From Clavelina lepadiformis (Eukaryota; Chordata; Ascidiacea; Aplousobranchia; Clavelinidae): DNA of 64,000 nt. The position numbers and the translations under genes were made by a program. The first letter of the stretch is position 1; the number at the start of each line of letters is the position of its first letter. Shown piece after piece: positions 583 to 55,210 of this stretch. The stretch is from contig NC_135242.1 in NCBI RefSeq assembly GCF_947623445.1, forward strand, positions 1,984,001-2,048,000. Direction: 5' to 3'. A model generated the notes under the pieces. The model was given only the letters and a program-made list of their open reading frames with translations, searched no databases and was not told the origin of the DNA.

Positions 583-2873
583 TCAAGGTAGCTTTCCTGT
601 GTGAACAGTTTCATGAATTCGCAAAGTGCTCTTTTGGGAAAATGACTTTTGACATATATGGCATTGATAAGGTCGCTCTCCAGTGTGCGTTCTCATATGA
701 TCTTTTAAATGGTGGCTAAGGGTAAATGACTTGTGACACACCTGGCATTGATAAGGTCGCTCTCCAGAGTGGATTTTCATATGAGTTTTTATATTACTGC
801 TATATGAAAATGACTTGTGGCACACCTGGCATTGATAAGGTCGCTCTCCAGTGTGAGTTCTAATATGAGCTTTTAAACTGCTGCTTCTGAAAAATGACTT
901 GTGGCACATATCGCATTGATAAGGTCGCTCTCCAGTGTGAGTTCTAATATGATTTTGCAAACTGCCATTTTGGATAAATGACTTGTGACAAACTTGGCAT
1001 TGATAAGGTCGCTCTCCGGTGTGGACTCTCATATGAGTTTTCAAATTGCAGCTTTGAGTAAATGACTTGTGACACACCTGGCATTGATAATTACGTTCTC
1101 CAGTATGAGTTCTCATATGAGTTTTTAAACTACTCCTAATGGAAAATTTATGGTGACACACCTGACATTGATAAGGTCGCTCTACAGCAGGGGTGTCAAA
1201 CTCAATCGCACCAAGGGCCAAAACTGAAAACTTATTTAACCCCGCGGGCCGAAAGGACAAAACTTGATTAAACGTTTCGTGACACGAGTACAAGAATTGG
1301 AACAGGCAGCGAAACAACACCAAATTTTTGATGTTTTTGACTATTTTTGACTGGGCTATTTTTGATTATTCTTCTCTTACATCATTATGTTTCATTCCTC
1401 TCCTTGCAAAAGCATTAAAAAATTAACAAATAATAATGAAAAAAGCAGCCGAGATTACTAGTGTTAGAATAAATCGATTTATTCTATCGTATGATGGGGC
1501 AACTGCTGTGATGCTGTTGTGATGATTTTATAAAATTGTTTGCAAATCGAATGCCGCATAGACTACGGAAATCGGCAAAGCAAAGCATTGCGTTACGTGT
1601 CGCCTATGCATGACTTCCGGTGTATAGTTATAATTCGTGACGTGAGTTATTCTTTCATTTACAGCTATTCGTTGCGTCACAGTCTACGAAGTTAACCATA
1701 GAAAGTGGTCGACTTTATTATGTAGCTGTCCCAATGTCTTATTTAATGTAATCGTTTAAACAAGAAACAATATAAACACTTTAAATAGTTGTCGAGGTGT
1801 ACAATTGATTCTAAGATTAAGAGAAGCGAAACAACGACCTGAGACTCATTTCACTTCGAGGACAGACAACAATTCTACAGACAAACTTTGTAATTGAAGT
1901 GATCGTCCTTACAGGCTAAGGAACGATAAACAATCATTTCATTACACTGTATTGTGAGATTTGTTAAAATCATGTTTCTTGCTTGAATAAAGTAACTTAT
2001 ACTGTAAAATAATCTCGCGGGCCGGAAATAGTTCAATGTATAAAATAACATTGCGGGCCAAATTTTATTGTAAAGTGGGCCGGATGTGGCCCGCGGGCCG
2101 GGAGTTTGACACCTATGCTCTACAGTATGGATTCTCACATGACGCTGCAAATTTCCATTTTGGGTAAATGACTTTTGACAAACATGACATTGATGAGGTC
2201 GCTCACCTGTGTGAGTTCTTAAATGATCTTTCAAGCATGTTTTGTATTTGAATGATTTGTCGCAAAAATTGCAAGAAAAATGCTTTTCTTTGTTATTTCC
2301 AACAGGAAACTGAGCATCTACTTTGCAAGCATTCTTTCTATTATTTGCGGTGGGTTTATCGAGAAACATTTGCACAGAATCGCTGCATTCTTCATCTGAG
2401 TTTATTTTATTACAAATTTGTGGTTTAACAATTTTGACTGTGGCATTTACTTCAATGTCAGATTGGGGAGGAAATTTTTTTAACATGGATATATTTGGGT
2501 CATCAATATCAGTCTGTGAAACCTCATATTCTTCCAACAGCAAAGGTTCTTCTTTGATAGCTTCAAAAAGAGGAAAGACTGGTGCCTTCTCAGAATAAAC
2601 ATCTTCAATATTAAGGCTGATATCTGAGTTTACAACTGTTGTTTGCGATGTTTCTTAAACTGGCATTGCATTGTTCATGGTTTCAGTTTTCTTTATCTCT
2701 GCAAGAAGCGTTGAAATCACATCTTCCATGTTTTCTTGCATTTTTACAAATTCCTTCTTCATATCTTGTCGCATTGATTTAAATTCTTGTGAAATCATAT
2801 CACTGATTGCTTTTAATAAAACGTCAACTTGCATACCAACTGGCTGACAATCCATTGTCTGATTATCATACAA
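583..2873 (-). pseudogene. C2H2 zinc-finger gene split by a hAT-like element
   Basis: Minus-strand member of the local family. The N-terminal helical module starts near 2852 (MDCQPVG), followed by the acidic linker and two fingers down to 2118. Seven more fingers run from 1187 to 583, ending in a complete terminal finger (CHICQKSFSQKSTLRIHE) and HTGKLP. The two halves are separated by an element at 1188-2117. Dropping it with one copy of its 8-bp target duplication rejoins the finger-2/finger-3 linker in frame (HTV-ERPYQC). A second lesion is a TAA at 2655-2657, where paralogues have a Glu codon after NNAMPV, so the gene would still be cut after the N-terminal module. A product would be a DNA-binding nuclear protein by family. 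The lesions argue for a recently dead gene. Confidence 0.85.
1188..2117. mobile_element. non-autonomous hAT-like element
   Basis: 930 bp bounded by inverted ends, CAGGGGTGTCAAACTC on the left and GAGTTTGACACCTATG on the right. It is flanked by a perfect 8-bp duplication CTCTACAG at 1180-1187 and 2118-2125. The 8-bp duplication and CAGGGGTGTCAAACTC-type ends are typical of hAT transposons. No transposase-like frame is visible, so it must have depended on another copy. It sits inside zinc-finger coding sequence. Confidence 0.9.
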
Positions 2874-2879
2874 CTTTAA

Positions 2880-3550
2880 AACCTATTTGCTGAAAAAAAC
2901 TTAAAATATCGGAAGATTTTCTTGATAGAGGAAAAACTGATAACGTGTAACCAAAACCATTGGAATAAAAATAATAAATCTAAATAAACTTTTTCAAAAA
3001 TCACTTCAAAGTACAGAACAGCAGTGATTGTCACATACAAAAATGAAAATCAAAAAGATTCCCTGTTGTTTTAAAAAATAGGTTTCTAAAGACTTCTGCA
3101 TAGTTTCAACATGTAAAACACACGAAATCATCTTAATTGACATTACACACCAGTTTGACCTAAACTAACCCACAATTGGCACACACCATAAACAGTGCTC
3201 AAATCAATTAAAAATTTTAGAGCAACCCTTTTAGGAAAGTTATATATATTCGAAATAAATGTTAAAGTCTGTTTGATGTGTTGTTGAAAATCACTGATCA
3301 ATGACCATTGGTTTGATTGAAACGTTTTGGGTTCACTTCAGATCGTCATATCATAGTATTAGTGAAAACTATTCAAAACCGTTTCAACAGTTTTTCAATT
3401 TTTTAAATAAGTAGTTTTCGTCCACAATGAAATTGGAACACATCTTTTAACTTAATCACTACTAGAAAACTAAACATTTGATAATTATAAAATGTTTTTT
3501 ATGCCAAAAACGACCAATACAGTGCAGTTTTATATTTCATGAAATATAGA
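2880..3550. other. intergenic, part of duplicated flank
   Basis: This is upstream flank of the 583-2873 relic. A pyrimidine-poor acceptor-like site lies shortly upstream of the start. Sequence from about 3000 to 3330 recurs near 6340-6720, 16255-16560 and 19380-19690, including the string around AAACACACGAAATCATC. From about 3390 it enters the block repeated at 13430. I see no gene. Confidence 0.5.
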
Positions 3551-3553
3551 AAG

Positions 3554-8429: not shown

Positions 8430-9240
8430 AGATTTATTTAGTTTTAACGTTTCAAATTGCCTTGCTTGGTTGAGTTTTTAACCTGGTTAAACAATCGGTT
8501 TAATGTAAACAATGCCTTAGCGAGATGTGATAAATTTCCTTACACACAACGTTAGTAGATATTACTTTGTCATCCTGCTAAAGAATTCAAGGGAAAAGAC
8601 AAACAAAATGCAACGCATAACGGTAATGCGAGTCTTGGGAAAACACATACTTGTGATCTAACACTAATGGTAGTGATGTTTCTTCAGTGGGACATTGCAT
8701 TGATCATGGTTTCAGTTTCCTTTGTTTCTTCCATCTGCATATCGAATAGCATTGATTTGAATTTTTGTGATATCATATCACTGATTGCCTTGAATAAAAC
8801 ATCAACTTGCATATTATCTGGATGACATTCCATGGTTTGATCGTGCTATAATAGATAGTCGCATGATCTTGCAAATTGGTGCTTCTGTTTAATGATATGT
8901 GACTTGCCTGGTATTGATAAGGTTGCTCATCAGTGTGAGTTATCGTATGAGTTTTCAATTTGAAGCTTTGAGTAAATGACTTTTCACACACCTGGCAGTG
9001 ATAATTATGCAATACGATGTGGATTCTCATATGATTTTTGAAATAATTACTTTGAGAAAATGTTTTAATAAGTGTTAATAAGCATCGTTTCAACGTAAAC
9101 GTCTTTTGACCATAAAAAAAACAAACATTGTTAACGTTGCTTTCCAGTGTGAATAGTTTCATGAATTCGCAAATTGCTCTTTTGGGAAAAGGAATATTGA
9201 CACACTTGGCAATAATAAGGTCAATCTCCATTGTGGATTC
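8430..9240 (-). pseudogene. zinc-finger relic, block D copy 2
   Basis: It begins with the shared block D sequence and contains the scrambled arrangement of N-terminal helical fragment (about 8800-8700) and fingers (CEKSFTQSFKLKTHTITH, a second finger with C-x2-C changed to Y/S, and a third near 9050). The high-coordinate end abuts and partly overlaps the last finger of the next gene. Frames are open only in pieces. Confidence 0.65.
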
Positions 9241-10573
9241 TCATATGAGCTTTTAAATGGTTGCTTTGGGTAAATGACTTGTGACAAACCTGGCATTGAT
9301 AAGGTCGCTCTCCAGTGTGGATTCTCATATGAGTTTTCAAACTACTGCTATCTGAAAATGACTTGTGGCACACTTGGCATTGATAAGGGCGCTCTCCTGT
9401 ATGGATTCTCATATGAGCTTGCAAACTTCCATTTTTGATAAATGACTTGTGACAAATTTGGCATTGATAAGGTCGTTCACCTGTGTGAGTTCTTTTATGA
9501 GTTTTCAAAATGCTGCTAACGGAAAACGATTTGTGGCACACCTCGCATTGATAAGGTCGCTCTCCAGTGTGGATTCTCATATGATATTTTAAACTGCTGC
9601 TAATAAAAAATGACTTGTGGCACACATCGCATTGATAAGGTCGCTCTCCAGTGTGAGTTCTCATATGAGCTTGCAAATTTCCATTCTGGATAAATGACTT
9701 GTGGCACACATCGCATAGATAAGGTCGCTCACCTGTGTGAGTTCTTAAATGAACTTTCAAGTTTCTTTTGCATTTAAAGGATCTATCACAAAAATTGCAA
9801 GAAAAATGCTTTTCTTTGTTATTTCCAACAAGCAACTGAGCATCAACTTTGCAAGCATTGATTTTTTCACTTGCAGTAGATTTATTGAGAAACATCTCCA
9901 CAGAATCGCTGCATTCTTCATCTGAATTTCTTGCAACACAGCTTTGTGGTTTAACAATTTTGATTGTGGTATTTACTCCAATATCTGATTGAGGAAGAAA
10001 TTTATTTAACATGGATATATTTTGGTCATCAATCTCAGTCTGTGAAACTGCATATTTATGCAACGACAAAGGTTCTTCTTTAATAACATCAAATTGAGGA
10101 TAAAATGATGCCTTTTCAGAATGATCTTCTTCAATACAGGTTTGGGGGTCAACAGTTTTAACTGCGGCATTTACTTCAATCTCCGATTGATGAGAAAACT
10201 TATTTGACATGGACGTACTTGGATCATCCATTTCAGAAACCTCCCAATGCCGCAACAGCAAAGGTTCTTCTTTGATAGCATCAACAGTAGGAAGAACTGA
10301 TGCATTCTGAGAATAAACTTCTTTAATACAAATGCCGATATCAGATTCTACATCTAATGCTTGTGACGTTTTATTAATCGGTATTGCATTGTTTATGGTT
10401 TCAGCTTTCTTTGTTTCTGGCAATATCTTTGAAACCATATCTTCCATATTTTCTTTCAATTTTGAAAATTCTATCTTCATATCTTGTCGCATTGCTTTGA
10501 ATTCTTGTGAAATTAGATCACTGATTGCTTTCAATAAAAAATCAATATGAATATTATCTGGATGACACTCCAT
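9221..10573 (-). CDS. C2H2 zinc-finger protein, 7 fingers
   Basis: I start at the MECHPDN codon (10571-10573), which matches the start of most paralogues, not at a Met 14 codons upstream. The product is 450 residues. Residues 1-65 form the helical N-terminal module. Two tandem acidic linkers follow, each with an IKEEPL core. Seven fingers (C-x2-C-x12-H-x3-H) are joined by TGERPYQC. All metal ligands are present. By family it is a nuclear DNA-binding protein; the target is unknown. The frame ends at TGA right after HNGD. Reading on in the same frame gives a further finger-like stretch (CQVCQYSFSQKSNLRIHE) and HTGK, so the original terminal finger was lost through a CGA-to-TGA type change. Confidence 0.85.
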   Translation of the reverse strand: MECHPDNIHIDFLLKAISDLISQEFKAMRQDMKIEFSKLKENMEDMVSKILPETKKAETINNAIPINKTSQALDVESDIGICIKEVYSQNASVLPTVDAIKEEPLLLRHWEVSEMDDPSTSMSNKFSHQSEIEVNAAVKTVDPQTCIEEDHSEKASFYPQFDVIKEEPLSLHKYAVSQTEIDDQNISMLNKFLPQSDIGVNTTIKIVKPQSCVARNSDEECSDSVEMFLNKSTASEKINACKVDAQLLVGNNKEKHFSCNFCDRSFKCKRNLKVHLRTHTGERPYLCDVCHKSFIQNGNLQAHMRTHTGERPYQCDVCHKSFFISSSLKYHMRIHTGERPYQCEVCHKSFSVSSILKTHKRTHTGERPYQCQICHKSFIKNGSLQAHMRIHTGERPYQCQVCHKSFSDSSSLKTHMRIHTGERPYQCQVCHKSFTQSNHLKAHMRIHNGD

Positions 10574-11500: not shown

Positions 11501-11571
11501 GTATAAGTAGAAAGCAGAGCATCTCAGAATAACAGATTAGTTGTGTTACTCCAACTCTACGACTAATAACA

Positions 11572-13150
11572 ATGGATGACTTCAGCTTCGTTCCCTCTAT
11601 CCGTGGAAAGTCAAAGCTCGCCCTCAATGGATTTCTTTATAGACACCAGCGGAGCCGTGGAGAGAATTATTATTTTCGTTGCGAACAGAATGATTGTTCT
11701 GGAACAGCGACACTGATGGCGGTGAACTACAAAGATACCAATGGAAAAGTAGATGTCGGAAAGTCCCATGTCCACGAGGCAGATGATCGAAGGGACCAGG
11801 TGTTACAAATGATTGGAAAAATTCGGAAAGAAGCAGCAACATCCAGTCTCCTGCCGATGACGATTGTACAACAACATCGGCAAAATGTTGACGCTGAAGC
11901 TGCAAAGATTTTGCCTAGTGAATCAGCACTTCGGCAAGTGGCACAACGATCGCGGCGGAAGCATCTGCCGAAGGAACCGGAGAATTTGAAAGAGTTGGTG
12001 ATTCCTGAGTTCCTGCAAAAAACAAGTAGCGGCGAGGACTTTATTTTGGTTGATACCGGTGATACAGATGGGGAAAACAGAATCATTGTAGTCGGATCCA
12101 TCGCGTTGCTCCGGAAGCTCGCTGATTGCGATATGTGGTTCTTGGACGGAACGTTCAAGATATGTCCCACTTTGTTTTACCAAATTTATACCATCAATGC
12201 TCACTTCAAGGGGATACCCTTACCGGTTGTCTATGCGTTGCTGCCACGAAAAACCGAGGAAAATTATTTAATGTTATTTTCGGAATTAAAAACCACAGCT
12301 GAACGTCATAGAGTTCAGCTTAACCCACAGCATCTAATGATAGACTTCGAGAAAGCTGCTGTCAATGCTTTAAAGTTTAAAGGAAGTGTTTCCCAATTCG
12401 TACTGCCATGGATGCCTTTTCCATCTTGGGCAAAGCATATATCGAAGAGTCCAGAAGAAGGGATTGGCAACGGAATTCCGTGATGATGATGATTTCAATT
12501 TAAAGATCAGAACATTGGTTGCGCTAAGCTTCTTAGAGTCTGACGCAATACCATCTGCATTTGCAGTTCTTTCACAAGACGCTTCACCAAATGAGGCAGA
12601 AATTTTCAGATATTTCGAAGAAGTGTACGTTTTAGGCCGCCCAATCCAAACCGCAATGCGCCGAGGAAGACGACCAATCAACCGTCGCCCTACAAATCGA
12701 CACCCACTCCTCTTCCCACCTGATTTTTGGAGTGTCAGCCAACTCCAACAATCGGGTCTTGCACGTACAAATAACATCCAGGACGCTTGGCATCACCGCT
12801 TCAATGCAATTGTCAACAGATACCACCAAAGCATTTTCAAAATAATTGAAGAGTTTCAAAGCGAGCATCATAGAGTTTCCCAAGAACTCTTTCACCTTGA
12901 ATTTGGTGCATCGACACCATTGCGGCGATCGCGTATGACAAGGCAAAAAGAAACCCGCATTAGAAATTTGTTTTCCCAGCAAGAAAACGTTCCACAGGAA
13001 GTATTTCTCCGCCAAATTGCGCGAAATTTGAAGATCGGACCAACTGCGGAGAACTACCAGAGGAATTGGACGAGATGGTTGAGGATTCTTAGTTGTTTTT
13101 TCTCTAAACTTTGTCTTGTGTGTGTTGTCATCTGTGCATTTACTAATTAA
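11572..13150 (+). pseudogene. MULE transposase with FLYWCH domain, frameshifted
   Basis: The first frame (11572-12483, 303 codons) has an N-terminal FLYWCH-type zinc domain (C37, C42, H66, H68 with YFRC and CSGTATL) and then the start of a MULE/transposase_25 catalytic domain: WFLDGTFK with Asp192 and DFEKAA with Asp258. Near 12372-12385 the homology switches to the next frame (12386-13150), which continues with FPNSYCHGCLFHLGQ, a hallmark of these enzymes, and a C-terminal DAWHHRFN region. One indel therefore separates the first two acidic residues from the rest. It would have acted in the nucleus, cutting and joining its own element. The lesion makes this copy non-autonomous. Confidence 0.88.
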
Positions 13151-13183
13151 CAGCAACTGCAACTTAATCAACAAATGTCAATC

Positions 13184-13367
13184 TGTCACTCAAATGTATT
13201 TCACAGTCCTTATCAATCTGTCATTCAAATGAATTACACAGTCCTTATCAATGTGTCACTCAAATGAATTAAACAGTACTTATCAATGTGTCACTCAAAT
13301 GAACTGTAATTATGTCACTCAAATGAACTGTCACTCTAATAAACTGTCACTCAGTTGATATACAACC
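13184..13367 (-). repeat. right subterminal iterons, 35-bp period
   Basis: At least six copies of TGTCACTCAA or one-base variants. The first three to four are embedded in a tandem unit of about 35 bp (CTTATCAATGTGTCACTCAA core). The array ends in the right inverted repeat at 13345-13367 and is the inverted counterpart of the left cluster. Confidence 0.8.
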
Positions 13368-18329: not shown

Positions 18330-19111
18330 AATTCAAACCAAGCGCAGCCATGCATTTAACCCCGCAATAAGGACAGAAGTATTCCAGTACAGGTGTTCAA
18401 TGCTCATATAAGCGATTAATCTTAAGCTTCGTGAAAAACATTTGTGATAGGTCTGGCATGGATAAATGGATGGATTAGGATTAGGTGGATGGATTAGGTC
18501 ACTTTGAGTGCAAGACCAAATGAGTCTGCAACTTTAAATTGTGTTTGATGTAGTTACCACAACAAATGCAAAAGAAAAATTTGTTTGTCTTTTCAATCAA
18601 AACGCGAATTATGATTTTGTTGGTATTGCTTTTACCACTTGCTGTGTATTTATTGAAATGTTATTCATAGTATCGTGGCATTCTTCATTTGATTTTCTGT
18701 CAACAAAAGTTTGGAGAACTGACATTTTTATTTGTGATATTTTCCTTAATCTATGATTGAGGGTGAGAGTCTCCTTTGTATAGCGTCTTTAACTACAGAA
18801 GTAATTGCATCACTAGATTTAGTTTGGGAAACCTTCTTCTCAGAATAAGCTTCCTGAAAACAAATGTTGATACCAGAATCTGCAACTGATGGCTGGAAAG
18901 TTTCTTCAAACTGCATTGCATTGTTCATGATTTCAACTTTCTTTGTTTCTGCAAGAATCTTTGAAGCCATATCGTCCATGTTTTGTTGCACTTTTGCAAT
19001 TTTCATCTTCATACCTTGTCGCATTGATTTAAATTCTTGTAAAATGGCATTAACATGACTGTTAGTTTTCAATGCAGCATCAACTTGCATTGTACCAAGG
19101 TCACGTTCCAT
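18330..19111 (-). pseudogene. short two-finger C2H2 gene relic, MERD type (copy 3)
   Basis: The best-preserved N-terminus of the three: an open frame of 121 codons (19111-18746) starting MERDLGTMQVDAALK. It has a helical region (QEFKSMRQGMKMKIAKVQQN) and the EKKVSQTKSSDAITSV linker, then a stop. The downstream linker and finger frame (18756-18340) is separated and the last finger has a Cys/His pattern broken by a GGATGGATTAGG insertion. The N-terminal frame could still make a fingerless helical protein. Confidence 0.6.
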
Positions 19112-31852: not shown

Positions 31853-33160
31853 TTATGTGTGTACAAATGTTCCATCTAACCACTCCGTTGTTTCACCAGT
31901 GTGCGTCACTTGGTGCCTGGCAAGAGAAAACTTTGACCGAAATCTCATTTCACAGATTTCGCAAATCCATGGTTTTTCTCCGTTGTGGCATGTCATATGG
32001 GTTTTTAAGCAGGTTCCAGAAGACAGCCTTCTAGGAAATATTGGGCATTGGATTGGCATTTCTTTAGTATGTATACGAAGATGGCGCATTAATTTGTATT
32101 TTTCTCAAAAGCGTTGTCCGCAAGTCACACACGACAAAGGTTTATCTCCAGTGTGCGTAAGCAGATGTCTATTGAGTCTGTATTTATGCTGAAAAGATTT
32201 TTCGCAATATTTGCATGTGTATGGCTTGATAGTGCTGTGTAGTTGCTTGTGTATAGATAGATTATCTTCTTTTGAGAAATGATTTATCACAAATGACTTC
32301 ATAACCGACGCCGACCGAAACCCACCGGGAATGTCCCTCGCAAGAACTGCTTGGGTCAGGCTCAACCGCTTGCGCACCGGAGTCGGACGCTTTCGTTCAG
32401 ACATGCACAAATGGGGACTGGCTCCCTCACCAGGATGCGAGTGTGGTGCCACAGAGCAGACAGCAGACCATGTGATCAATGCCTGCCCAATCCATCGGCC
32501 CCCACGTGGTGTGCTTGGTCTGAAAAGACTAGACGAGGATACAATCGCATGGCTGATGACCTCATGCCCGGAGATCTAGTCTGGAAAGAAGAAACGCTCA
32601 AACGAAGAATATTTATCACAAACATCACAATTAAACTTTTCATCATTCAGTGTCTCATCGTATTTCAGTGGCGTCTCGCTTTCCTCAAGCAACTTGCATT
32701 GCATTTCAGCAACAAGATCAGCTTTACCAAAAGAAATTCTTAAGTGTTTTTTTGCAGATTCTTTCTTGTCTTGATCGCTTTTTGACTTTGTTTGACATGA
32801 GTCAGTGGAAACTTTCTGCTTTTTAGTCACACTTCTAGTTGTGACTGCATCAATGGCAAGTTTATGATTTTTGGGGACACTTTTGGTTGTAGCGTTTTCG
32901 AAAAAGTTTTGTTTTGTTTTTCTATCAGATTTCTGTGATGGTTCTGATGGTTGTTGTTCCAAAACTAATGAAGGCTCTTCTTCAACGATAACAACACGAG
33001 ATGAAAACGATCCAGATCTGGAGGAGCACTGTTTGGCCGAGATGCTGGGATCCAACTCAGTGTGTGGGGGATCTGGCATCACAGGATGCTGTTGATTCCC
33101 ATGAGATAAACATAGAAGGTCTTGACTTGGTTCATCCGTGATTTTAGATTTTAGAAAATG
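31853..33160 (-). pseudogene. divergent C2H2 zinc-finger gene with retrotransposon insertion
   Basis: A different subfamily from its neighbours. From 33160 a Ser/Lys-rich region (FENATTKSVPKNHK, KKQKVSTDSC, SAKKHLRISF) leads to a finger starting FNCDVCDKYSS. That finger is cut by a non-LTR tail at 32294-32610 and resumes after it (FSKEDNLSIHKQLH). Four further fingers follow. The third is broken by an in-frame TGA (CGQRF, stop, EKYKLMRH), and the fourth has lost its second Cys (CPIF). Finger linkers (THTGDKPLSC, CHNGEKPWIC) differ from the TGERPYQC type. The 5' end is missing where a finger array of the next gene starts at 33150-33170. Confidence 0.8.
32294..32610 (+). mobile_element. 5'-truncated non-LTR retrotransposon
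   Basis: The plus-strand frame (32331-32579) encodes the C-terminal end of a non-LTR reverse transcriptase: LNRLRTGVGRFRSDMHKWGL, then CECGATEQTADHVINACP, a Cys/His motif typical of these elements, and a stop after CPEI. A 12-bp duplication ATTTATCACAAA flanks it at 32282-32293 and 32611-32622. The remaining 3' tail is only about 30 bp and ends in GAAGAAT-like sequence without a long A tract. It inserted antisense to the zinc-finger gene. Confidence 0.87.
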
Positions 33161-34860
33161 ACTTGTGGCACACATCGCATTGATAAGGTCGTTCACCAGT
33201 GTGGGTTTTCATATGAGTTTTCAAACTGCTGCTATTGATAAATGACTTGTGGCACACATCGCATTGATAAGGTCGTTCACCAGTGTGGGTTCTCATATGT
33301 ATTTTCAAATGGCTGCTTTTGATGAATGACTTGTGGCACACATCACATTGATAACGTCGCTCTCCACTGTGGGTTCTCATGTGAGTTTTCAAATCACTGT
33401 CAGTGGAAAATGACTTGTGGCACACATCGCATTGATAAGGTCGTTCTCATATGTATTTTTAAATGGCTGCTAATGAAAAATGACTTGTGGCACACATCGC
33501 ATTGATAAGGTCGTTCACCAGTGTGGGTTCTCATATGAGTTTTCAAATGGCTGCTTTCGGAAAATGACTTGTGGCACACATTGCATTGATAAGGTCGCTC
33601 TCCAGTGTGGGTTCTCATATGAGTTTTCAAATCACTGTCAGTGGAAAATGACTTGTGGCACACATCGCATTGATAAGGTCGTTCACCAGTGTGAGTTCTC
33701 ATATGTATTTTTAAATGGCTGCTATTGAAAAATGACTTGTGGCACACATCGCATTGATAAGGTCGTTCACCAGTGTGGGTTCTCATATGAGTTTTCAAAT
33801 GGCTGCTTTGGGAAAATGACTTGTGGCACACATCGCATTGATAAGGTCGCTCTCCAGTGTGGGTTCTCATGTGAGTTTTCAAATCACTGTCAGTGGAAAA
33901 TGACTTGTGGCACACATCGCATTGATATGGTCGCTCTCCAGTGTGAGTTCTCATGTGAGCTTTCAAATCCTTGTTAGCAGAAAATGACTTGTGGCACACA
34001 TCGCATTGATAAGGTCGCTCTCCAGTGTGGGTTCTTATGTGAGTATTCAAGTTTGCTTTATGTTGGAATAATTTATTACAAAACTTGCAGAAAAAACGTT
34101 TTTCTTTGTTGTTTCCAACAAACATCTGAGTCTGGATTTTGCAAGCATTGTTTCTATCATTTGTTGCAGAATTATCAAAGAACAATTCCACAGAATCGCC
34201 GCATTCTTCATCGGAACTTCTTTCAATACAGTTTCTGGTATCGATCGTTTTAACTATGGCTTTTACTCCAATATCTGATTGAGAAGGTAATTTATTTGAT
34301 ATGGATATAGTTGGGTCATCAGCCTCAGTTGGCAAATCTGCATATTGTTGCAACAACAAAGGTTCGTCTTGAATAACATCAAATTAAGGATAAATTGATG
34401 CCTTTTCAGAATGATCTTCAATACAGGTTTGGGGCTTAACAGTTTTAACTACGGCATTTAATTCAATCTCTGATTGATGAGAAAATTTATTTGACATGGA
34501 CATACTTGGTTCATCCATTTCAGAAACCTCCCAATGCTGCAACAGCAAAGGTTCTTCTTTGATAGCATCAACAGGAGGAAGAACTGATGCATTCTGAGAA
34601 TAAACTTCTTTAATACAAATGCCGATATCAGATGCTACATCTAATGCTTGTGACGTTTTATTAATCGGTATTGGATTGTTTATGATTTCAGCTTTCTTTG
34701 TTTCTGCCAGAATCTTTGAAACTATATCTTCCATATTTTCTTGCACTTTAGCAAATTCTATCTTCATATCTTGTCGCATTGATTTGAATTCTTTTGAAAC
34801 CATATCACTGATTGCTTTCAATAAAAAATCAACTTGCATACCAGCTGGATGACAATCCAT
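33144..34860 (-). pseudogene. C2H2 zinc-finger gene with 3-finger repeat expansion
   Basis: Close paralogue of 29310-30587 from MDCHPAGMQVDFLLKAI. A TAA near 34384 (after KASIYP, where the paralogue has a sense codon) ends the first frame, and the second starts in the linker at 34359. At least eleven full fingers follow. About 14 bp lost near 33440 shifts the frame in finger 8. The array then continues at 33425-33144 and stops in the middle of a finger ([11 protein letters not shown]). Fingers 3-5, 6-8 and 9-11 repeat the pattern STDSDLK, (S/K)SSHLK, (F/I)xSS(H/S)LK, so a unit of three fingers (about 252 bp) was amplified. Confidence 0.85.
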
Positions 34861-35148: not shown

Positions 35149-35986
35149 TTAAGACAAAGATATCGCAATGTCAACACAGCAAGGCTCGCAGTAATCGTAA
35201 TGGGTGAAGACAACGCTTATACCTGTTAAGATTGAATCTTTTTCCAAATTTCTTACCGCAGATTTGACAGGTATACTGGCCTCTAGTGGTTTTAGATTAC
35301 ATATGTAAGGGTTTTCGTAAATGCGCCTTACCCATGCAGCCAACTTTAGTCACGGCTTCACGGCAACATATCCCAGTTAAACCTTTTTGATTAATGGGCC
35401 CTTGAAATTTTTCTAAAGCACTACTTGCACAAGGTTCTTTGTTTGTTGCGTTTTCAAAACTTTTCGATTCCTGCTCTGACATTCACAGAATAATCGTCAA
35501 TTCCAGAAGCATTACTTGAAACGTCTGATACACCACTACGACTCAGATTAGTGTAGAAGTTGTTTTCAAAGTTTTCAGACAAATTCTCAGCTACATGTTT
35601 AAGAAATGTTTCAAATTGTTTAAAGTATAACCGTTGCAAACCTTCTTGTTCTTCATCTAACAAAAATTCCTCTTTAATCTTTTCAAAATGAGCAAAAATT
35701 GATGAGTTTTCACAATAAGCTTCTTGATCACAAACATCAGATTGTATAGATGATAGTATTGTGAACCTGATGCTTGCTGATATGATAACGTGTTGCTCAC
35801 AACTTTAGCTCTATCAGTTTCTTCCAGAAAATGCTTTAAAATCAATTCTTCAATTCTTTCTTCCAATTTTACAAATTCTTTCTCCACATTCATCCTGACT
35901 GATTTTATTTCTTGCAAGAACAAGTGTCGGATTGTCATTGTTGCACCATTACCATCAACCTGATTCTGGATCAGGTCAGTTTCCAT
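35149..35986 (-). pseudogene. relic of the divergent zinc-finger subfamily
   Basis: Starts METDLIQNQVDGNGATM at 35986 with a helical module (QEIKSVRMNVEKEFVKLEER) recognisably related to the main family. The frame then breaks at least three times. A Ser-rich part contains KSFENATNKEP, echoing FENATTK in the 31853-33160 relic, and one finger is readable near 35270-35190 (YTCQICGKKFGKRFNLNR). It probably shows what the missing N-terminus of that relic looked like. No single reading frame survives. Confidence 0.65.
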
Positions 35987-35989
35987 TCT

Positions 35990-36240
35990 TTCTGTGTTTA
36001 TATAAACTCAACATAAATATTTTTATTTGAAGCTGAAATAAACACATCAGCAAAACTGAATCAAAAAGACAACAATAACACACACAGGGACATAATAATA
36101 CAAAACATGAAAAATGTAAACTCTCTGTCCACTAGGCTATTATAAAATAAAAAGTACATATTGTAGACACGAAATCATCTAAAATGACTTCACACAACCA
36201 GTTTGACCTAAACTAACCCACAATAAACAGTGCTGAAATC
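35990..36240. other. intergenic
   Basis: AT-rich flank, no gene seen. It includes the AAAACACACGAAATCATC-like family flank near 36165-36230. Confidence 0.4.
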
Positions 36241-37160: not shown

Positions 37161-38333
37161 TTAAGGTTGCTCTCCTGTGTGATTTGTCATATGAGTTTTC
37201 AATTTGCTGCTAACGGAAAATGACTTTTGGCACAAATCGCATTGATAAGGTCGCTCTCCAGTGTGGATTCTCATATGAGATTTTAAATTGCCGTATTGGG
37301 CAAATGACTTGTGGCACACATCGCATTGATAAGGTCGCTCTCCAGTGTGAATTCTCAAATGTCTGTTCGAACTGCTGCTATCTGAAAACGACTTGTGGCA
37401 CAAATCGCATTGATAAGGTCGCTCTCCAGTGTGGATTCTCATATGAGTTCGCAAACTTGCATTTCGGATAAATGACTTGTGACAAATTTGGCATTGATAA
37501 GGTCGCTCTCCAGTGTGAGTTCTCAAATGTATGGTCAAATTGCTGCTATCGGAATATGACTTGTGGCACACATTGCATTGATAAGGTCGCTCTCCAGTGT
37601 GAGTTCTCATATGATTTAGCAAATTTACATTTCGGATAAATGACTTGTCACAAATTTGGCATTGATAAGGTCGCTCACCTGTGTGAGTTCTTACATGTTC
37701 TTTCAAGTTTGTTTTGCATTTGAATGATTTTTCACAAAAATTGCAAGAAAAATGCTTTTCTTTGTTATTTTTATTTCCAACAAGCAACTGAGCATCAATT
37801 TTGCAAGCATTAATTGTTTCACTTGCAGTAGATTTATTGAGAAACATCTCCACAGAATCGCTGCATTCTTTATCTGAGTTTCTTGCAACACAGCTTTGTG
37901 GTTTAAGAATTTCGACTGTGGCATTTACTCCAATATCTGGTTGAGAAGGATATTTATCTAACATGGATATATTCCGGTCATCATTCTCAGGCTGAGAAAC
38001 CTCATATTCTTCCAACAGCAAAGGTTCTTCTTTGATAAGTTCAACAAAAGGAAACACTGGTGCCTTCTCGGAATAAACTTCCTCAATATTAAGGCTGATA
38101 TCAGAGTTTACAACTGTTGTTTGTGATGTTTCTTCAACTGGCATTGCATTGTTCATGGTTTCAGTTTTCTTTATCTCTGCAAGATGCGTTGAAATCACAT
38201 CTTCCATGCTTTCTTGCATTTTTACAAATTCCTTTCTCATATCTTGTTGCATTGATTTAAATTCTTGTGAAATCATATCACTGATTGCTTTTAACAAATC
38301 ATCAACTTGCATTCCAACAAGGTGATACTCCAT
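37161..38333 (-). CDS. C2H2 zinc-finger protein, 7 fingers
   Basis: 390 residues from the MEYHLVGMQVDDLLKAI start (a Met seven codons upstream is less likely). Helical module, one acidic linker ([18 protein letters not shown]), SVARNSDKECSD-type bridge, then seven intact fingers. The first is HFSCNFCEKSFKCKTNLKEH and the last is CDLCQKSFSVSSKLKTHMTNH, ending TGEQP. Fingers 5-7 and this unusual ending are shared with 42731-44399, so the two form a pair. An acceptor-like TTTTCAG lies about 45 nt upstream of the start. Confidence 0.87.
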   Translation of the reverse strand: MEYHLVGMQVDDLLKAISDMISQEFKSMQQDMRKEFVKMQESMEDVISTHLAEIKKTETMNNAMPVEETSQTTVVNSDISLNIEEVYSEKAPVFPFVELIKEEPLLLEEYEVSQPENDDRNISMLDKYPSQPDIGVNATVEILKPQSCVARNSDKECSDSVEMFLNKSTASETINACKIDAQLLVGNKNNKEKHFSCNFCEKSFKCKTNLKEHVRTHTGERPYQCQICDKSFIRNVNLLNHMRTHTGERPYQCNVCHKSYSDSSNLTIHLRTHTGERPYQCQICHKSFIRNASLRTHMRIHTGERPYQCDLCHKSFSDSSSSNRHLRIHTGERPYQCDVCHKSFAQYGNLKSHMRIHTGERPYQCDLCQKSFSVSSKLKTHMTNHTGEQP

Positions 38334-42730: not shown

Positions 42731-44399
42731 TTAAAGTTGCTCTCCTGTGTGATTTGTCATATGAGTTTTCAATTGGCTGCTAAGAGAAAAGGACTTGTGA
42801 CACACTTCGCATTGATAAGGTCGCTCTCCAGTGTGGATTCTCATATGAGCTTTTAAATTGCCACATTGGGCAAATGACTTGTGGCACACATTGCATTGAT
42901 AGGGTCTTTCTCCACTGTGATTTCTCAAATGTCTGTTCAAACTGCTGCCATCTGAAAATGACTTGTGGCACACATCGCATTGATAAGGTCGCTCTCCAGT
43001 GTGAGTTCTGATATGATTTCGTAATTTTCCATTTCGGATAAATGACTTGTGACAAATTTGGCATTGATAAGGTCGCTCTCCAGTGTGAGTTCTCAAATGT
43101 ATGGTCAAACTGCTGCTATTGGAAAATGACTTGTGGCACACGTTGCATTGATAAGGTCGTTCTTTAGTGTGAATTCTTTTATGAGTTTTCAAAGTGCTGT
43201 TAATGGAAAATGACTTGTGGCACACATTGCATTGATAAGGTCTCTCTCCTGTGTGAGTTCTTATATGAAATTTCAAGTTTCTTTTGCATTTGAATGATTT
43301 GAGACAAAAATTGCAAGAAAAATGCTTTTCTTTGTTATTTTTATTTCCAACAAGCAACTGAGCATCAACTTTGCAAGCATTGATTCTTTCACTTGCAGTA
43401 GATTTATTGAGAAACATCTTCACAGAATCGCTGCATTTTATATCTGAGTTTCTTGCAACACAGTTTTGTGGATCAACCATTTTTACTGTGGAATTTACTG
43501 CAATATCAGATTGAGAAGTTAATTTCTTTGATATTGATGTACTTGGGTCATCAGTCTCAGTCTGAGAAACTGTATATTTTTGCAACGACAAAGGTTCCTC
43601 TTTAATAACATCAAATTGAGGATAAGTTGATGTCTTTTCAGAATTATCTTCTTCAATACAGGTTTGTGGCTCAACCATTTTAACTGTGGCATTTACTCCA
43701 ATATCTGATTGAGGAGGATATTTATTTAACATGGATATACTTGGGTCATAAGAATCATGCTGTGAAACCTCATATTCTTCCAACAAAATAGGTTCTTCTT
43801 TGATAGTGTCAATAAGAGGTAGAACTGATGCTTTCTCAGAATAAAGAATAAACAAAATAAAGCAACTGAGCATCAACTTTGCAAGCATTAATTCTTTCAA
43901 TTGCAGTAGATTTATTGAGAAACATCTCCATAGAATCGCTGCTTTCTTCATCTGAGTTTCTTGCAACACAGTTTTGTGGTTTAACAATGTTGACTGTGGC
44001 ATTCACTCCAATATCTGATTGAGGAAGAATTTCTTCTGACATTGATATATTTAAGTCATCAACATCAGGCTGTGAAACCTCATATTCTTCCAACAGCAAA
44101 GGTTCTTCTTTGATAACTTCAACAAGAGGAAAGACTGGTGCCTTCTCAGAATAAACTTCCTCAATATTAAGGCTGATATCTGAGTTTACAACTGTTGTTT
44201 GTGATGTTTCTTCAACTGGCATTGCATTGTTCATGGTTTCAGTTTTCTTTATCATCGAAATCACATCTTTCATGCTTTCTTGCATTTTTACAAATTCCTT
44301 TCTCATATCTTCTCGCATTGATTTAAATTCTTGTGAAATCATATCACTGATTGCTTTTAACAAAACATCAACTTGCACACCAACTAGTTGACGACCCAT
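42731..44399 (-). pseudogene. chimeric C2H2 zinc-finger gene, 7 fingers
   Basis: The first frame starts MGRQLVGVQVDVLLKAI at 44399. It carries the helical module and a complete linker ([16 protein letters not shown] to [10 protein letters not shown]), then runs into a junction near 43845 and stops. The second frame resumes with YSEKASVLPLIDTIKEEP, a further two linker copies, and seven intact fingers, ending TGEQL. Three linker copies plus the AT-rich junction (AATAAAGAATAAACAAAATAAAG) show that two genes were joined by recombination inside the linker, with a frame change. Unless an intron removes the junction, it cannot give one protein. Confidence 0.7.
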
Positions 44400-47637: not shown

Positions 47638-48430
47638 GTTGCCAGCGATTATTATTGATTTGCGACAGTTATTGTCCTGTCTTTATTTGATAACTAGCCC
47701 TTCAACACATTTTAACAAAGCCTGAGTAACATTGAACTGGAAATTAACATTGCAGCTAACTTTATTGGTATTGCATTGTTCATGGTTTCAACTTTCTTTG
47801 TTTTTGCAAGAAGCGTTGAAACCATATCTTTCATTGTTTTCTTGCATTTGTGCAAATTCATATCTTGTCGCATATGTTTTACTTCTTCTAAAATCAGATC
47901 ACTGCTTGCTTTTAACAAAACATCCACTTTCATACCACCTCCATGACACTCCATAGTTTACAATTAATACTGTCCTGAAAACTTTGCTAATAAATAAAAG
48001 TATGCAATTGTGATGAGACAAAGAAAGATTAGACATGAAGTAGGAGACATTGTATTCCAAAAACACCAACGAAAATGATAAATCAAGGTCGTAAAATAGC
48101 CACACACCACAATGTAATAAAATTTACAAAATGTATGCATTTCATTCAACTGATTAGAAAAGTAATACATGTAAGAACACTTTCAATAACCAACACCTTA
48201 ACTTCTTTATATAACAGATCACTAACGCAGGTTTGTTTACTAACAAACTAAAATCTGTATAGAAGCACATCAAATGAACAAACATATTTTCAAAAAATAC
48301 CGATGTTTTAGCTTAAATTTAACTGCCTGTATATACCAGTTTTTATTGAACTTTCATTTAGGCAAAACACATTTAAAAGTTAGTTAGTGTTAAGGGTAGA
48401 CGCAAAAGAGCGAAAAATTATTGTTTTCCA
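47638..48430 (-). pseudogene. solo N-terminal module relic (copy 2)
   Basis: Duplicate of 41535-42310. Here the N-terminal exon is open for 80 codons from MECHGGGMKVDVLLKASSDL at 47954, including KTMKDMVSTLLAKTKKVET and NNAIP, then diverges and stops. No linker or fingers follow. If expressed it would make a short helical protein. A decayed gene is more likely. Confidence 0.6.
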
Positions 48431-49567: not shown

Positions 49568-51079
49568 TCATTCATTATAATGTTGCCTTTCACTGTGGAT
49601 AGCCATGTGACGTTGCAAAGAGAATTTATGGGTAAATGACTTTTGACACTCCTGGCATTGATAAAGTCGCTCTCCAGTATGAGTATTCATATGAGTTTGC
49701 AAATTGCTCTTAATGGTAAATGACTTGTGACAAACCTCACATTGATAAGGTCGTTCTCCAGTGTGGACTCTCTTATGAGTTAGGAAATTGCTGTTAGAGG
49801 CAAATGACTTTTGACAAACCTCGCATAGATAAGGTTGCTCTCCAGTGTGAATATTCATGTGAGTTTGCAAATTGCTGTTACTGGCAAATGACTTGTGACA
49901 AACCTCGCATTGATAAGGTCGCTCTCCATTGTGGATTCTGATATGAGTTTGCAAACTGCTATTTTGGGTAAAAGATTTTTGACAAACTTCGCATTGATAA
50001 GGTCGTTCTCCAGTGTGTATTCTCATATGAATTTGTAGATTGCTACTTCTAGTAAATGACTTGTGACACAATTTGCATTGATAAGGTCGCTCTCCAGTGT
50101 GTATTCTCATATGAATTTGTAGATTGCTACTTCTAGTAAAAGACTTGTGACACATTTTGCATTGATAAGGTTGCTCTCCAGTGTGGATTCTCATATGAGT
50201 TTGCAAACTACTATTTTGGGTAAAGGGCTTTTCACAAACCTCACATTGATAACGTCGCTCTCCAGTGTGGATTCTCATATGAATTTGTAGATTGTCAGTC
50301 CTAGTAAATGACTTGTGACACATTTTGCATTGATAAGGACGCTCTTCATTGTGGGTAGTCGTATGAATACGCAAATGGCACTTTTGGATAAATGACTTTT
50401 CACACACCTGGCATTGATAAGGTCGCTCTCCTGTGTGAGTTCTTCTATGATATTTCAAGTGTGATTTTTGTTTGAATGATTTATCACAAAACTTGCAAGT
50501 AAAATGTTTTTCTTTGTTATTTCCAACAAAAACCTGAGCATTGACATTGCAAGCATTGATTCCATCGCTTGCTGCAGGTTTATCAAGAAACATTTCAAAA
50601 AAATTGCTATATTCTTCATCTGAACTTCTTTCAACACAGCTTTGTGGCGCAATAGTTTTAACCGTGGCATTTACTCCGATATCTGATTGAGTAGGAAATT
50701 TGTTTAACATGGATATACTTGGGTCATTAGTTTCGGTCTGTGAAACCTCATATTCTTCGAACAAGAAAGGTTCTTTTTTGACAGCTTCAACAACAGGAAG
50801 AACTGATGCCTTCTCAGAATAAACTCTCTCAATAGAAATGCCGATATCAGATTCTATATCTAATGGTTGTGGTGTTTCTTCAATTGGAATTGTATTGGCC
50901 ATTGTTTTAGATTCCTTTGTGTCTGAAAACAATTTTGATACCATATCTTCCATGTTTTCTTGCACTTTTCCAAATTCCTTCATCATATCTTGTCGAATTA
51001 ATTTAAATTCTTGTAAAATCAAATCACTGATTGCTTTCAATAAAACATCAAGTTGAGTTATACCTGGATGACACTCCAT
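49568..51079 (-). CDS. C2H2 zinc-finger protein, 11 fingers
   Basis: 503 residues from MECHPGITQLDVLLKAI. Helical module with QENMEDMVSKLF, one acidic linker ([18 protein letters not shown]), bridge with SCVERSSDEEYSNFFEMFLD, and eleven fingers, the first HFTCKFCDKSFKQKSHLKYH. Fingers 3-7 alternate two types (FTRSSNLQIH and FTQNSSLQTH), and 5 and 6 are nearly identical, which shows recent internal duplication. The terminal finger (CQECQKSFTHKFSLQRH) is complete and the protein ends naturally in HSERQHYNE, unlike several paralogues. A T-rich tract and CAG lie 35 nt upstream of the start. It is a nuclear DNA-binding protein by family; the target is unknown. Confidence 0.92.
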   Translation of the reverse strand: MECHPGITQLDVLLKAISDLILQEFKLIRQDMMKEFGKVQENMEDMVSKLFSDTKESKTMANTIPIEETPQPLDIESDIGISIERVYSEKASVLPVVEAVKKEPFLFEEYEVSQTETNDPSISMLNKFPTQSDIGVNATVKTIAPQSCVERSSDEEYSNFFEMFLDKPAASDGINACNVNAQVFVGNNKEKHFTCKFCDKSFKQKSHLKYHRRTHTGERPYQCQVCEKSFIQKCHLRIHTTTHNEERPYQCKMCHKSFTRTDNLQIHMRIHTGERRYQCEVCEKPFTQNSSLQTHMRIHTGEQPYQCKMCHKSFTRSSNLQIHMRIHTGERPYQCKLCHKSFTRSSNLQIHMRIHTGERPYQCEVCQKSFTQNSSLQTHIRIHNGERPYQCEVCHKSFASNSNLQTHMNIHTGEQPYLCEVCQKSFASNSNFLTHKRVHTGERPYQCEVCHKSFTIKSNLQTHMNTHTGERLYQCQECQKSFTHKFSLQRHMAIHSERQHYNE

Positions 51080-51894: not shown

Positions 51895-52731
51895 TTATAG
51901 ATAAGGTCGCTTTCCAGTGTGGATTCTCATATGAGTTTGCAAAGTGCTATTACGTAAAAAGGACTTGTGACAAACCTTACATTGATAAGGACGCTCTTCA
52001 TTGTGTATTTTCATGTGAGTTTGCACATTACTACTTTGGGTAAAAGACTTTTGACAAACCTCACATTGATAAGGTCGCTCTCCTGTGTGAGTTCTTCTAT
52101 GATATTTCAAGTGTGATTTTTGTTTGAATGATTTATCGCAAAACTTGCAAGTAAAATGCTTTTCTCTGTTATTTCCAACAAACACCTGAGCATTGACATT
52201 GTAAGCATTGATTCCATCACATGCTGCAGGTTTATCGAGAAACATTTCTAAAAAATTACTGCATTCTTCATCTGAATTTCTTTCAACACAGCTTTGTGGC
52301 TCAACAGTTTTATCAATAGCATTTACTCCATTCTCTGATTGAGTAGAAAATTTGTTTAACATGGACATACTTCGGTTATCAGTTTCGGTCTGTGAAACCT
52401 CATATTCTTCGAACAAAAATGATTCTTCTGTGACAGCTTTAACAACAGGAACAACTGATGCATTCTGAGAATAAACTTTCTCAACACAAATGCCGATATC
52501 AGAACAAACATCAAATAATTTTGATGTTTTTTCAATTGAAACTGCATTGTTCTTGGTTTGAACTTTCTTTGTTTCTGCAAGGAAATTTGAAACCATATCT
52601 TTCATGCCTTCTTGCGATTTTGCAAATTCCATTTTCATATCTTGTCGCATTGATATAAATTCTTGTGAAATCATATCACGGATTCCTTTTAACAAAATAT
52701 CAACTTGCATTATGCCTGGATGACACTCCAT
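51895..52731 (-). CDS. C2H2 zinc-finger protein, shortened to 3 fingers
   Basis: 278 residues from MECHPGIMQVDILLKGI. Helical module, one acidic linker whose SUMO-like Lys is replaced (AVTEESFLFEEYEVSQ), bridge SCVERNSDEECSNFLEMF, then three intact fingers closely like the start of the 49568 gene. It ends TGKRPYL followed by TAA. Beyond the stop, to about 51770, two to three further finger-like stretches with lost Cys/His and more stops are visible. The array was therefore longer once. The truncated protein could still bind DNA with three fingers. It could equally be an early pseudogene. Confidence 0.65.
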   Translation of the reverse strand: MECHPGIMQVDILLKGIRDMISQEFISMRQDMKMEFAKSQEGMKDMVSNFLAETKKVQTKNNAVSIEKTSKLFDVCSDIGICVEKVYSQNASVVPVVKAVTEESFLFEEYEVSQTETDNRSMSMLNKFSTQSENGVNAIDKTVEPQSCVERNSDEECSNFLEMFLDKPAACDGINAYNVNAQVFVGNNREKHFTCKFCDKSFKQKSHLKYHRRTHTGERPYQCEVCQKSFTQSSNVQTHMKIHNEERPYQCKVCHKSFLRNSTLQTHMRIHTGKRPYL

Positions 52732-53700: not shown

Positions 53701-53709
53701 ATGAATACT

Positions 53710-54370
53710 ATAAATGTATGATGACAATCTATGTCAAAATCAATTTTAACAAATTCAATTCATTTAACTACATAGAGCAGATGTTTCCATACTTGTGACA
53801 GCAAATGTTTTGTCACTAAAACAAAAAATTGCTGATCTACATTCAAGCCTCACTATTGAAGTTGAACCTGACAATGGACCTACTAAAAGTTATAAACCAA
53901 CGCCAACAAAACTTACAAAGTAGATGATAATGTCAATAAACCATATAAATAGTTTAAATAAATATTTAACCTGAAATGGATGACAAGATGATAATGTCAA
54001 TTCTAGAATAATAATGAATGCATGAAAAACGAGATAAATTTTTATAAAACCTAGAAACCAATTTTCTTTCATAAAGATACTTTAATCGACACAAGATGTT
54101 GTTTATTTTACTTTAGATTACAAAACAATGAGCGGTACGCAATATCGGTCATGAAATAACATGCACAATGTTGATTAAACAATTATCAACTCACTATCGC
54201 ATTCAAAACTAAAAATTCCGAATGCTAATTGCCAACTACAATCATGCAGTGGATGCTTTTGGTTTATTGGAATAAACATTGTTGAAACTATTGAAATGGA
54301 AAGTCAAAAAACCAACCACAAAGTTTCAAAAACAAGATAAAAGATAAAGAAATGTTTTTAATACTGGAAT
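53710..54370. other. intergenic
   Basis: AT-rich. I see no gene. Short frames here lack recognisable motifs. Confidence 0.4.
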
Positions 54371-54379
54371 TATGCACAA

Positions 54380-55210
54380 ATGCTTTTTAAAAGAATTTAC
54401 ATTTCCATGTTCGTTTCCCGATGTGGGCTTTAATACGCACTGACATTTTGCTTTTGAGCTAAACAACTTTTCGCCATGTGAACACTTGTATGGCTGTTCT
54501 CATGTGTTTTTTCATATGATTTCGCAAACGGTTGCTATGAAAAATGATTTATGACACACCGGGCATTAATAAAGACTCTCGCCAGTGTGGATTTTGACAT
54601 GATTATGCAAATTGATATTATTGGGAAATGATTTATGGCACAACTGATATTGATAAGGACACTCTCCAATGTGCATATTCATATGAACTTGCAAATTGCA
54701 GCTTTGAGTAAATGATTTCAAACACACCTGGCTTTATTAAGGTCACTCACTTGTGTGAGTTCTTATGAGGCTGCAAATATAAATTTTGGGTAAATGACTT
54801 TATTATATATCTGGCATTGGTAACGGTGCTCTGCAGTATGGATTGCCATATGAGATTGTAAACTGCTATTTTGGAAAAATTTTTTGTGACAAACCTGACA
54901 TTACATACCTCCAGTATGGATAATCAAATAAGCTTTTAAACTTCTATTTTGGGTAAATGACTTGTCACACAAATTGCATTGATAAGGGCACTCTCCAGTG
55001 TGGGTTCTTATATGATTGTTGAAGGGAGTTTTGTTGTTGAATGATTTATCACAAAAATTGCAAAAAAAATGCTTTTCTTTGTTTTTTCCAACAAGCAAGT
55101 GAGCATCAACTTTGCAAGCATTAATTCTATCACTTACGCTGGGTTCATCGAGAAACATTTCTACAGAATCGCTGCATTCTTCATCTGAGTTTCTTGCAAC
55201 ATTGTGCCTA
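54380..55210 (-). pseudogene. 5'-truncated C2H2 zinc-finger gene
   Basis: Opens in the linker bridge ([18 protein letters not shown], near 55195-55130) without N-terminal module. It then has one good finger ([20 protein letters not shown]) and a second with a changed linker (TGECPYQC), and stops at 54901. Six or more decayed fingers follow to about 54400, with frame changes and missing ligands. The upstream break at about 55210 lies just before a hAT-like element. Confidence 0.75.

Follow-up and report, generated by a model that had tools for sequence, protein, structure and literature searches.

Zinc-Finger Genes in the Window

The window analyzed here, a 64-kb stretch of the genome of the tunicate Clavelina lepadiformis (chromosome 3, contig C3, positions 1984001–2048000; the genome comprises 209 Mb in 95 contigs), carries part of a cluster of C2H2 zinc-finger genes that share an N-terminal helical module. 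The protein plan is laid out in one open frame and consists of a helix, a disordered linker bearing an I/V-K-E-E-P motif of the SUMO type, and an array of C2H2 fingers. A hidden Markov model (HMM) built from six modules of the window recovers eight modules at full length (E ≤ 5e-37), among them the six from which it was made, as well as four diverged or shortened modules that cover the full span and about 12 broken copies, the last number reflecting our own grouping of fragments at E < 0.001. All copies are encoded by the minus strand and fall within about 2.7–52.8 kb of the window, and 5–6 of about 24 are intact. The module, the linker, and at least four strict C2H2 fingers occur in one frame in five open reading frames (ORFs), with the module coming first in each of the five, as had been stated for every complete member in a preliminary description made from the sequence.

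These five intact members, delineated by ORF and finger scans and all on the minus strand, are located at 9221–10573 (450 residues, 7 fingers), 23444–25147 (567 residues, 11 fingers), 29310–30587 (425 residues, 6 fingers), 37161–38333 (390 residues, 7 fingers, one-unit linker), and 49568–51079 (503 residues, 11 fingers, one-unit linker). A short member with a module, a linker, and few fingers is found at 51895–52731 (minus strand; ORF and HMM). The gene at 23444–25147, identified as a chimera by the identity comparisons described below, begins with a module (24953–25147, HMM and alignment A1 of 12 window modules) that is followed by a two-unit linker, in which the 66-residue unit carrying the K-E-E-P motif is tandemly duplicated (24507–24904, two copies of 198 bp, detected with Tandem Repeats Finder); a second such duplication is present at 43450–43842. 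The module of the gene at 29310–30587 (30393–30587, alignment A1) was the one modeled with AlphaFold and taken as query in the genome search, and the 5′ flank of this gene (30588–30645, minus strand) contains TTCTTATCAG, a candidate 3′ splice acceptor 34 nt before the ATG, recognized from the sequence only.

The remaining copies, also on the minus strand, are damaged to various degrees. Full-length modules are present at 2661–2855, where the frame is broken ahead of the linker, and at 34666–34860, where the fingers are in a different frame (33400–34383); a diverged module with no in-frame fingers is found at 18911–19111, and a module with a deletion at 44217–44393, in a 198-residue frame that stops ahead of any finger (all four from ORFs, HMM, and A1). 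A degenerate copy occupies 47766–47954 (HMM and A1). Two diverged kinds, referred to as types 2 and 3, are represented by a module and linker with the motif IKEEF and fingers out of frame (type 2, 35454–36007, with the module match at 35660–36007; ORF and A1) and by a linker remnant that is missing the module part and has the motif VEEEP (type 3, 32576–33208; ORF). A finger-only remnant at 583–1365 and a remnant of a linker with two fingers at 54901–55218 (both from ORFs) form the left and right limits of the family in the window, and several other stretches are finger-only or linker-only remnants. Neither inverted repeats of at least 300 bases nor tRNA genes were found in the window.

The N-Terminal Module

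Alignment A1 bears out the module of about 65 residues and the consensus given for it in the preliminary description, although the conserved part exceeds 65 residues and continues into the linker. AlphaFold predicts a single helix for residues 5–63 with a predicted local distance difference test (pLDDT) score of 91 (12 window sequences). In a 260-residue construct (8 window sequences), a helix comprising residues 5–60, with blocks of pLDDT 52–79, is the sole structure, and residues 58–260 fall below 50. The averaged hydrophobicity of the module has a period of 3.71 (P = 0.009 against shuffles), slightly above the hendecad value of 3.67 and that of a plain helix, 3.6. At each of the 16 core positions, 84–100% of type 1 copies have a hydrophobic residue (V, I, L, M, or F), and 14 of the 16 are likewise hydrophobic in type 2 and in type 3. 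The module, described earlier as helical with regular spacing, is thus predicted to form one long amphipathic helix with the hydrophobic core spacing of a coiled coil.

No strong match to a named domain emerged from the databases. When the 12 modules were searched alone, the best E-value in Pfam was 0.012 (24 families at E ≤ 5) and the best in a PDB sequence search was 0.08 (13 matches at E ≤ 5), none of them convincing; we judge these weak single-module matches to be due to chance or to generic coiled coils. In five full proteins (the best 25 of 29–34 Pfam families for each), only zinc-finger types score convincingly, and KRAB, SCAN, ZAD, and BTB, from which the module had been set apart, are absent both there and among the families matched by the 12 modules. 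KRAB is also missing from the 13 PDB matches, and a genome-wide search with PF01352 (KRAB) returned no matches, a result uninformative alone, as the control gave none either. Foldseek found no matches of the module in the PDB, a lone helix holding little fold information.

In members located on C7 (18.43–18.61 Mb) and C1 (27.3 Mb), the module match begins only at residue 29–33 within a long frame, and the first half of the module may be on another exon or lost.

The Linker and Gene Structure

The linker, and the arrays described further below, were compared in 43 distinct proteins, picked for a module and at least four strict fingers in one frame. They were derived from 71 such ORFs by removing identical and truncated duplicates (L074 is the same as L075); loci L058, L065, and L081 contributed no protein. 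The linker holds the 66-residue unit once or twice, and a third unit may be present in two linkers, which are 249 and 257 residues long; in some genes, the motif-carrying unit is duplicated as 198 bp according to Tandem Repeats Finder. The pattern [VIL]K[ED]EP is present in 39 of the 43 linkers, with 46 sites compared to a shuffle mean of 0.2, a test that overstates independence, the linkers being homologous. Residues Lys101, Glu103, and Pro104 are invariant across the alignment of the 43 when gaps are set aside. Reading the P-x-V-E-x segment that precedes K-E-E-P as an HP1-type PxVxL motif was considered and rejected except as a lead, as Ala or Val usually takes the place of Leu at its end.

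A candidate splice acceptor, consisting of a pyrimidine tract with CAG at its end, is located 30–50 nt before the ATG in 40 of the 43 genes (script-based scan; the exceptions are L068, L071, and L083), and therefore the whole coding region appears to be contained in one exon. The partner joined upstream may be an exon or a spliced leader.

Copy Number and Arrangement of the Cluster

A genome-wide count, suggested in the preliminary description, was made by two protein searches with one module each, of which at most the best 150 matches were scored. For the first query, these were the best 150 of 346 candidates, counted manually by contig, strand, and frame. The weakest of these 150 has an E-value of 5.7e-11, far from chance; 107 of them are on C3, 29 on C1, nine on C7, and five on C8, and 75 lie in a stop-free frame of at least 250 codons, the other 75 being without one. 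A chromosome 1 module used as a second query added 21 places (counted manually), bringing the family to at least 171 places on four contigs.

On C3, which starts with CCCTAA telomere repeats, the matches among the best 150 occupy 1.47–2.08 Mb, a main cluster of about 0.6 Mb that extends past the window, with members seen at C3:2057390 and C3:2078475. Among the matches listed, the cluster consists of two convergent arms, with 49 of 49 copies below 1.70 Mb on the plus strand and 58 of 58 above it on the minus strand. For 35 of 41 intact C3 genes, the gene most similar in the N-terminus is found in the same arm, compared to 20.1 expected from label shuffling, although overall divergence hardly depends on distance (rho = 0.10), with means of 0.161 within arms and 0.173 between them. 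Duplication within the two-arm cluster appears to have been mostly local, and the copy number, arm structure, and same-arm relatives agree with the earlier characterization of a rapidly duplicating cluster. Some near-identical copies repeat at fixed spacings (about 52, 26, or 25 kb) and may be retained haplotypes.

The places found for the diverged types all lie in the same cluster. The type 2 module shares 33% of its residues with A1's first type 1 module and is found in 13 places at ≥75% identity; it keeps the plan of a helix, a ψ-K-x-E motif (IKEEF), and C2H2 fingers, and another copy in the cluster has three fingers of a different kind. Type 3 (L086), found in about 15 places at ≥71% identity, shares the head and a motif, VKDEP, as read up to the linker only. 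The sole match outside C1, C3, C7, and C8 is C4:658155–658322 (E = 6.9e-4). It belongs to a gene (L087, C4:658050–659750) with a 494-codon ORF that matches the middle of the module HMM with 22.0 bits, compared to 12.1 bits for the best of 2000 shuffles. Having the motifs VKQEP, VKQEA, and VKEEC followed by five to six conventional fingers, this gene follows the same plan as the family and may be close to its ancestral gene. Separately, C2H2 arrays at C1:0.2–4 Mb and C5:21.97 Mb match the query only from residue 113–122, with most of the linker absent, and are possibly a separate zinc-finger family.

Selection on the Finger Arrays

The ratios of nonsynonymous to synonymous substitution rates (dN/dS) were estimated from 21 disjoint close pairs among the 43 proteins. 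The DNA-contacting positions −1, 2, 3, and 6 have a dN/dS of 1.92 (95% confidence interval (CI) 1.47–2.65), the finger backbone 0.37 (0.33–0.42), and the linker 0.92 (0.80–1.10). In 106 disjoint pairs of strict fingers, dN at the contacts is 0.269 against their own dS of 0.125, and the values for the remaining positions are 0.029 and 0.065; as the pairs were matched by non-contact identity, the latter are biased low, and the contact ratio is therefore set against its own dS. The entropy of the fingers peaks at −1 (3.48) and +6 (2.89), with that of +2 and +3 (about 2.6) being equal to that of the non-contact position −2 (2.58). There are 195 distinct contact quadruplets in 315 fingers, and the contact strings are distinct in 42 of the 43 proteins.

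These values bear directly on the view that the cluster is mostly a product of non-functional tandem duplication, in which unequal exchange between finger repeats is followed by decay and few members work. Such a view would account for the half of the best 150 module matches that lack a stop-free frame of 250 codons, for the small intact fraction within the window, and for a linker ratio with a CI that includes 1. However, a backbone ratio of 0.37 among intact genes needs purifying selection, and a contact ratio near 2 needs positive selection, so that this explanation is already weakened by the dN/dS results, and we consider it distinctly unlikely. Turnover of contact residues also resembles that of PRDM9, and a meiotic or recombination role could be envisaged for proteins with such fast-evolving DNA contacts; nevertheless, no SET/PR domain is found among the best 25 Pfam families of each of the five full members, and the family comprises many paralogues rather than one gene, making such a role very improbable.

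The arrays often end at a stop codon (TGA in 24 of the 43) with readable finger remnants directly after it, as in the gene at 9221–10573 and in L077, L080, and L045, and six of the stops were flagged by a script as lying exactly at the TGERP linker. With finger remnants located directly after the stops, arrays seem to shorten through nonsense changes.

Exchange of Arrays by Recombination

Comparison of closely related members reveals that heads and arrays can have different histories. Genes L047 and L048, located 52 kb apart, differ by 0.3% in their N-termini and are identical in 600 nt of upstream DNA, whereas their fingers are mostly different and their 3′ flanks unrelated; the window gene at 29310–30587 is matched by L047 throughout, with 92–100% identity in 150-nt windows. 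A screen of pairs with N-terminal divergence of up to 6% gave 51 rows, reduced to 50 as the tail of L023/L024 was too short. In six of these 50 close pairs, at least 500 of 600 upstream bases are matched at ≥90% and no 3′ match is seen in either direction; most of the other close pairs retain some 3′ match. The six pairs correspond to about three independent events, involving L048, L072 versus the gene at 23444–25147, and L052 versus L054/L055.

The second of these events is a chimera within the window. About 0.5 kb of upstream DNA, the module, the linker, and the first fingers of the gene at 23444–25147 are 88–99% like L072 (C3:1787493), 221 kb away, whereas its last fingers and about 1.4 kb of the 3′ flank are 91–100% like the neighboring gene at 29310–30587. 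The change-over falls inside the finger array, at 23586–24186 (minus strand), the interval in which the windowed identities to the two parents cross (positions 1561–2161 of the tested region). Some genes are thus shown by their sequences to have swapped finger arrays, with recombination taking place within the repeats of the array. Through such events between 84-bp finger units, a different array can be attached to a head already present, and a new DNA specificity would be attainable in one recombination step with the head retained.

Transposons and Neighboring Sequence

The surroundings of the cluster had been described as rich in transposons, which is overstated, as only two transposon-like ORFs were recognized among the non-finger ORFs scanned in the 64 kb. 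One region (11533–13150, plus strand) contains FLYWCH and MULE transposon ORFs in two frames. The MULE element has seven further copies in the genome at ≥78% identity, one of them inside the C3 cluster (1566444), with short pieces at C3:1540242 and C3:1589385, and a 35-bp tandem repeat (13178–13303, 3.6 copies) follows its ORF directly. A 422-codon ORF with a CCHC-like motif (56118–57386, minus strand) and a weak ZCCHC3-type match below the cut-off may be ORF1 of a long interspersed element. To the right of the family, an alpha/beta hydrolase exon (PF07859; 60258–60734, minus strand) belongs to an ordinary gene. A repeat that follows some of the zinc-finger genes was considered as a dispersed element and dropped, with one match in the window compared to 0.23 expected.

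The small number of transposon ORFs is in line with the possibility that the proteins are ordinary promoter- or enhancer-binding transcription factors whose diversification served development or colony traits particular to the species, with the helix as a generic dimerization tail and no special link to transposons. The C4 gene, in which the same plan is combined with conventional fingers, points in the same direction. On the other hand, positive selection at the contacts and replacement of whole arrays would be unusual in conserved developmental regulators, and on balance we regard this explanation as unlikely.

Comparison with Known Zinc-Finger Families

With many clustered paralogues, one N-terminal module, and diversified fingers, the Clavelina genes have the features of an expanded C2H2 family. 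They share with the KRAB zinc-finger proteins of tetrapods the clustered, duplicating C2H2 arrays, the short N-terminal module, birth-and-death evolution, and positive selection on contact residues. They differ from them in that the module is a coiled-coil-like helix with no KRAB match, and in that a SUMO-type site is present in the linker of the protein itself. The separate effector exon of KRAB genes is likewise not found in the members read, as each of the 43 proteins, which had been selected for holding both module and fingers, is read in a single open frame from the module through the linker to the fingers.

SCAN, a multi-helix Pfam domain, is also an N-terminal helical module that may pair proteins; the Clavelina module differs from it in having no Pfam match and one predicted helix. 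The zinc-coordinating ZAD is the N-terminal pairing domain of a large and dynamic family of insects, and it differs from the Clavelina module, which has no Pfam match and a single Cys in its consensus. FiNZ sequences also contain K-E-E-like motifs, which we take as a lead only.

According to the available portion of the report on FiNZ proteins of cyprinid fish (PMC10547256), these too have a lineage-restricted N-terminal module unlike known domains and are encoded by hundreds of clustered genes, and in two clades dN/dS > 1 is found preferentially at the base contacts, comparable to the contact ratio of the likewise clustered Clavelina family. The FiNZ module is described there as comprising 28 glutamate-rich residues on its own upstream exon (PMC10547256), whereas in Clavelina about 65 residues of helix and a linker lie within the frame of the fingers, a comparison made by description. 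Knock-down of FiNZ de-represses transposons (PMC10547256); TRIM33 has been proposed as a FiNZ partner in a study in which, as far as its accessible text goes, the correlation between FiNZ and transposon expression was not significant (PMC11603059).

Among tunicate transcription factor families, C2H2 numbers are reported to be the most variable, Styela clava having 154 and exceeding Ciona robusta by 59; the accessible part of that survey of ascidian repertoires names ZBTB and plain zf-C2H2 proteins and describes no N-terminal module (PMC8122590). No description of the present family was found in the listed titles and opening abstract lines of the open-licence literature on tunicate zinc fingers, C2H2 expansion, and KEEP motifs. 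By analogy, the family would work like the KRAB and FiNZ families, although assigning it to either goes beyond the evidence presented here. Families of this kind are already on record, and this one is set apart from them by its module, its layout in one frame, and the swaps documented above.

Proposed Function and Its Implications

We propose, with a probability of about one in two, that these genes encode chromatin regulators with sequence-specific binding, in a family that has grown greatly, with a helix for pairing, a SUMO-type linker, and retuned finger arrays likely directed at repeats. In the proposed mechanism, the predicted N-terminal helix would form a coiled coil that pairs the proteins, and the I/V-K-E-E-P site in the disordered linker, once SUMOylated, would attract repressive chromatin enzymes. 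A precedent for the latter step is Drosophila Bonus, in which SUMOylation is needed for repression and affects the interaction with SetDB1, according to the available text of that study (PMC10672805). The finger array would pick the DNA target. It is retuned by positive selection at the base-contacting residues and sometimes replaced by recombination inside the finger repeats, a single event that, as the chimeric sequences show, puts a different array behind a head already in place. The most likely targets may be repeats such as transposons, as in the KRAB and FiNZ families, and control of transposons by the Clavelina family is inferred from this analogy. The FiNZ report treats as open questions how broadly clustered zinc-finger families of animals act against repeats and whether they serve mainly in silencing (PMC10547256).

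Several observations, in addition to the small number of transposon-like ORFs recognized and the homology underlying the motif count, weigh against this proposal. The dN/dS of the module in the 21 pairs is 0.73 (95% CI 0.54–0.98), weakly below 1, and a comparison of 41 genes with the single chromosome 1 copy read (excluding L068 and L084, in which the start Met is missing or an indel is present) gives 0.84 as a ratio of medians. Core sites of the module change as non-core sites do (0.132 versus 0.127 per site), and for a dedicated effector the constraint on the module is weak. Both L085 on chromosome 1 (IEETS) and the type 3 remnant of the window have lost the lysine of the motif, and VIEEEP or VIQDEP occurs instead in some second units of the linker. 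Lastly, a stricter rule for swaps, by which a gene must have at least half of its fingers in common with one other than its closest relative by head, flags only two of the 43 genes.

As the dN/dS of the module is 0.73, part of its sameness is due to youth. Changes at core positions nonetheless keep the hydrophobic class in 32 of 40 cases, compared to 0.60 expected (p = 0.005), whereas those at non-core positions keep their class less than expected (62 of 92 versus 0.82). The head, in which the core keeps its hydrophobicity despite change, is therefore conserved in character more than in sequence, which weakens the notion of a constant effector module and leaves a role in pairing specificity possible. 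Of the preliminary view of variable fingers attached to such a module, the first half stands, the fingers being variable and under positive selection; the second is overstated, the module being weakly constrained.

A bolder extension of the proposed function, which we put forward tentatively and with the odds against it, is that a system of genome surveillance like that of KRAB proteins arose independently, and from different parts, in tunicates, the sister group of vertebrates. In this system, a fast-evolving coiled-coil head would serve as a pairing address among paralogues, a built-in SUMO site would replace an adaptor of the TRIM28 type, and arrays would be exchanged by recombination. With another kind of head, a compact layout in one frame, and swaps of very recent date, this ascidian family would allow the head, the SUMO site, and the array to be studied separately in an invertebrate chordate.

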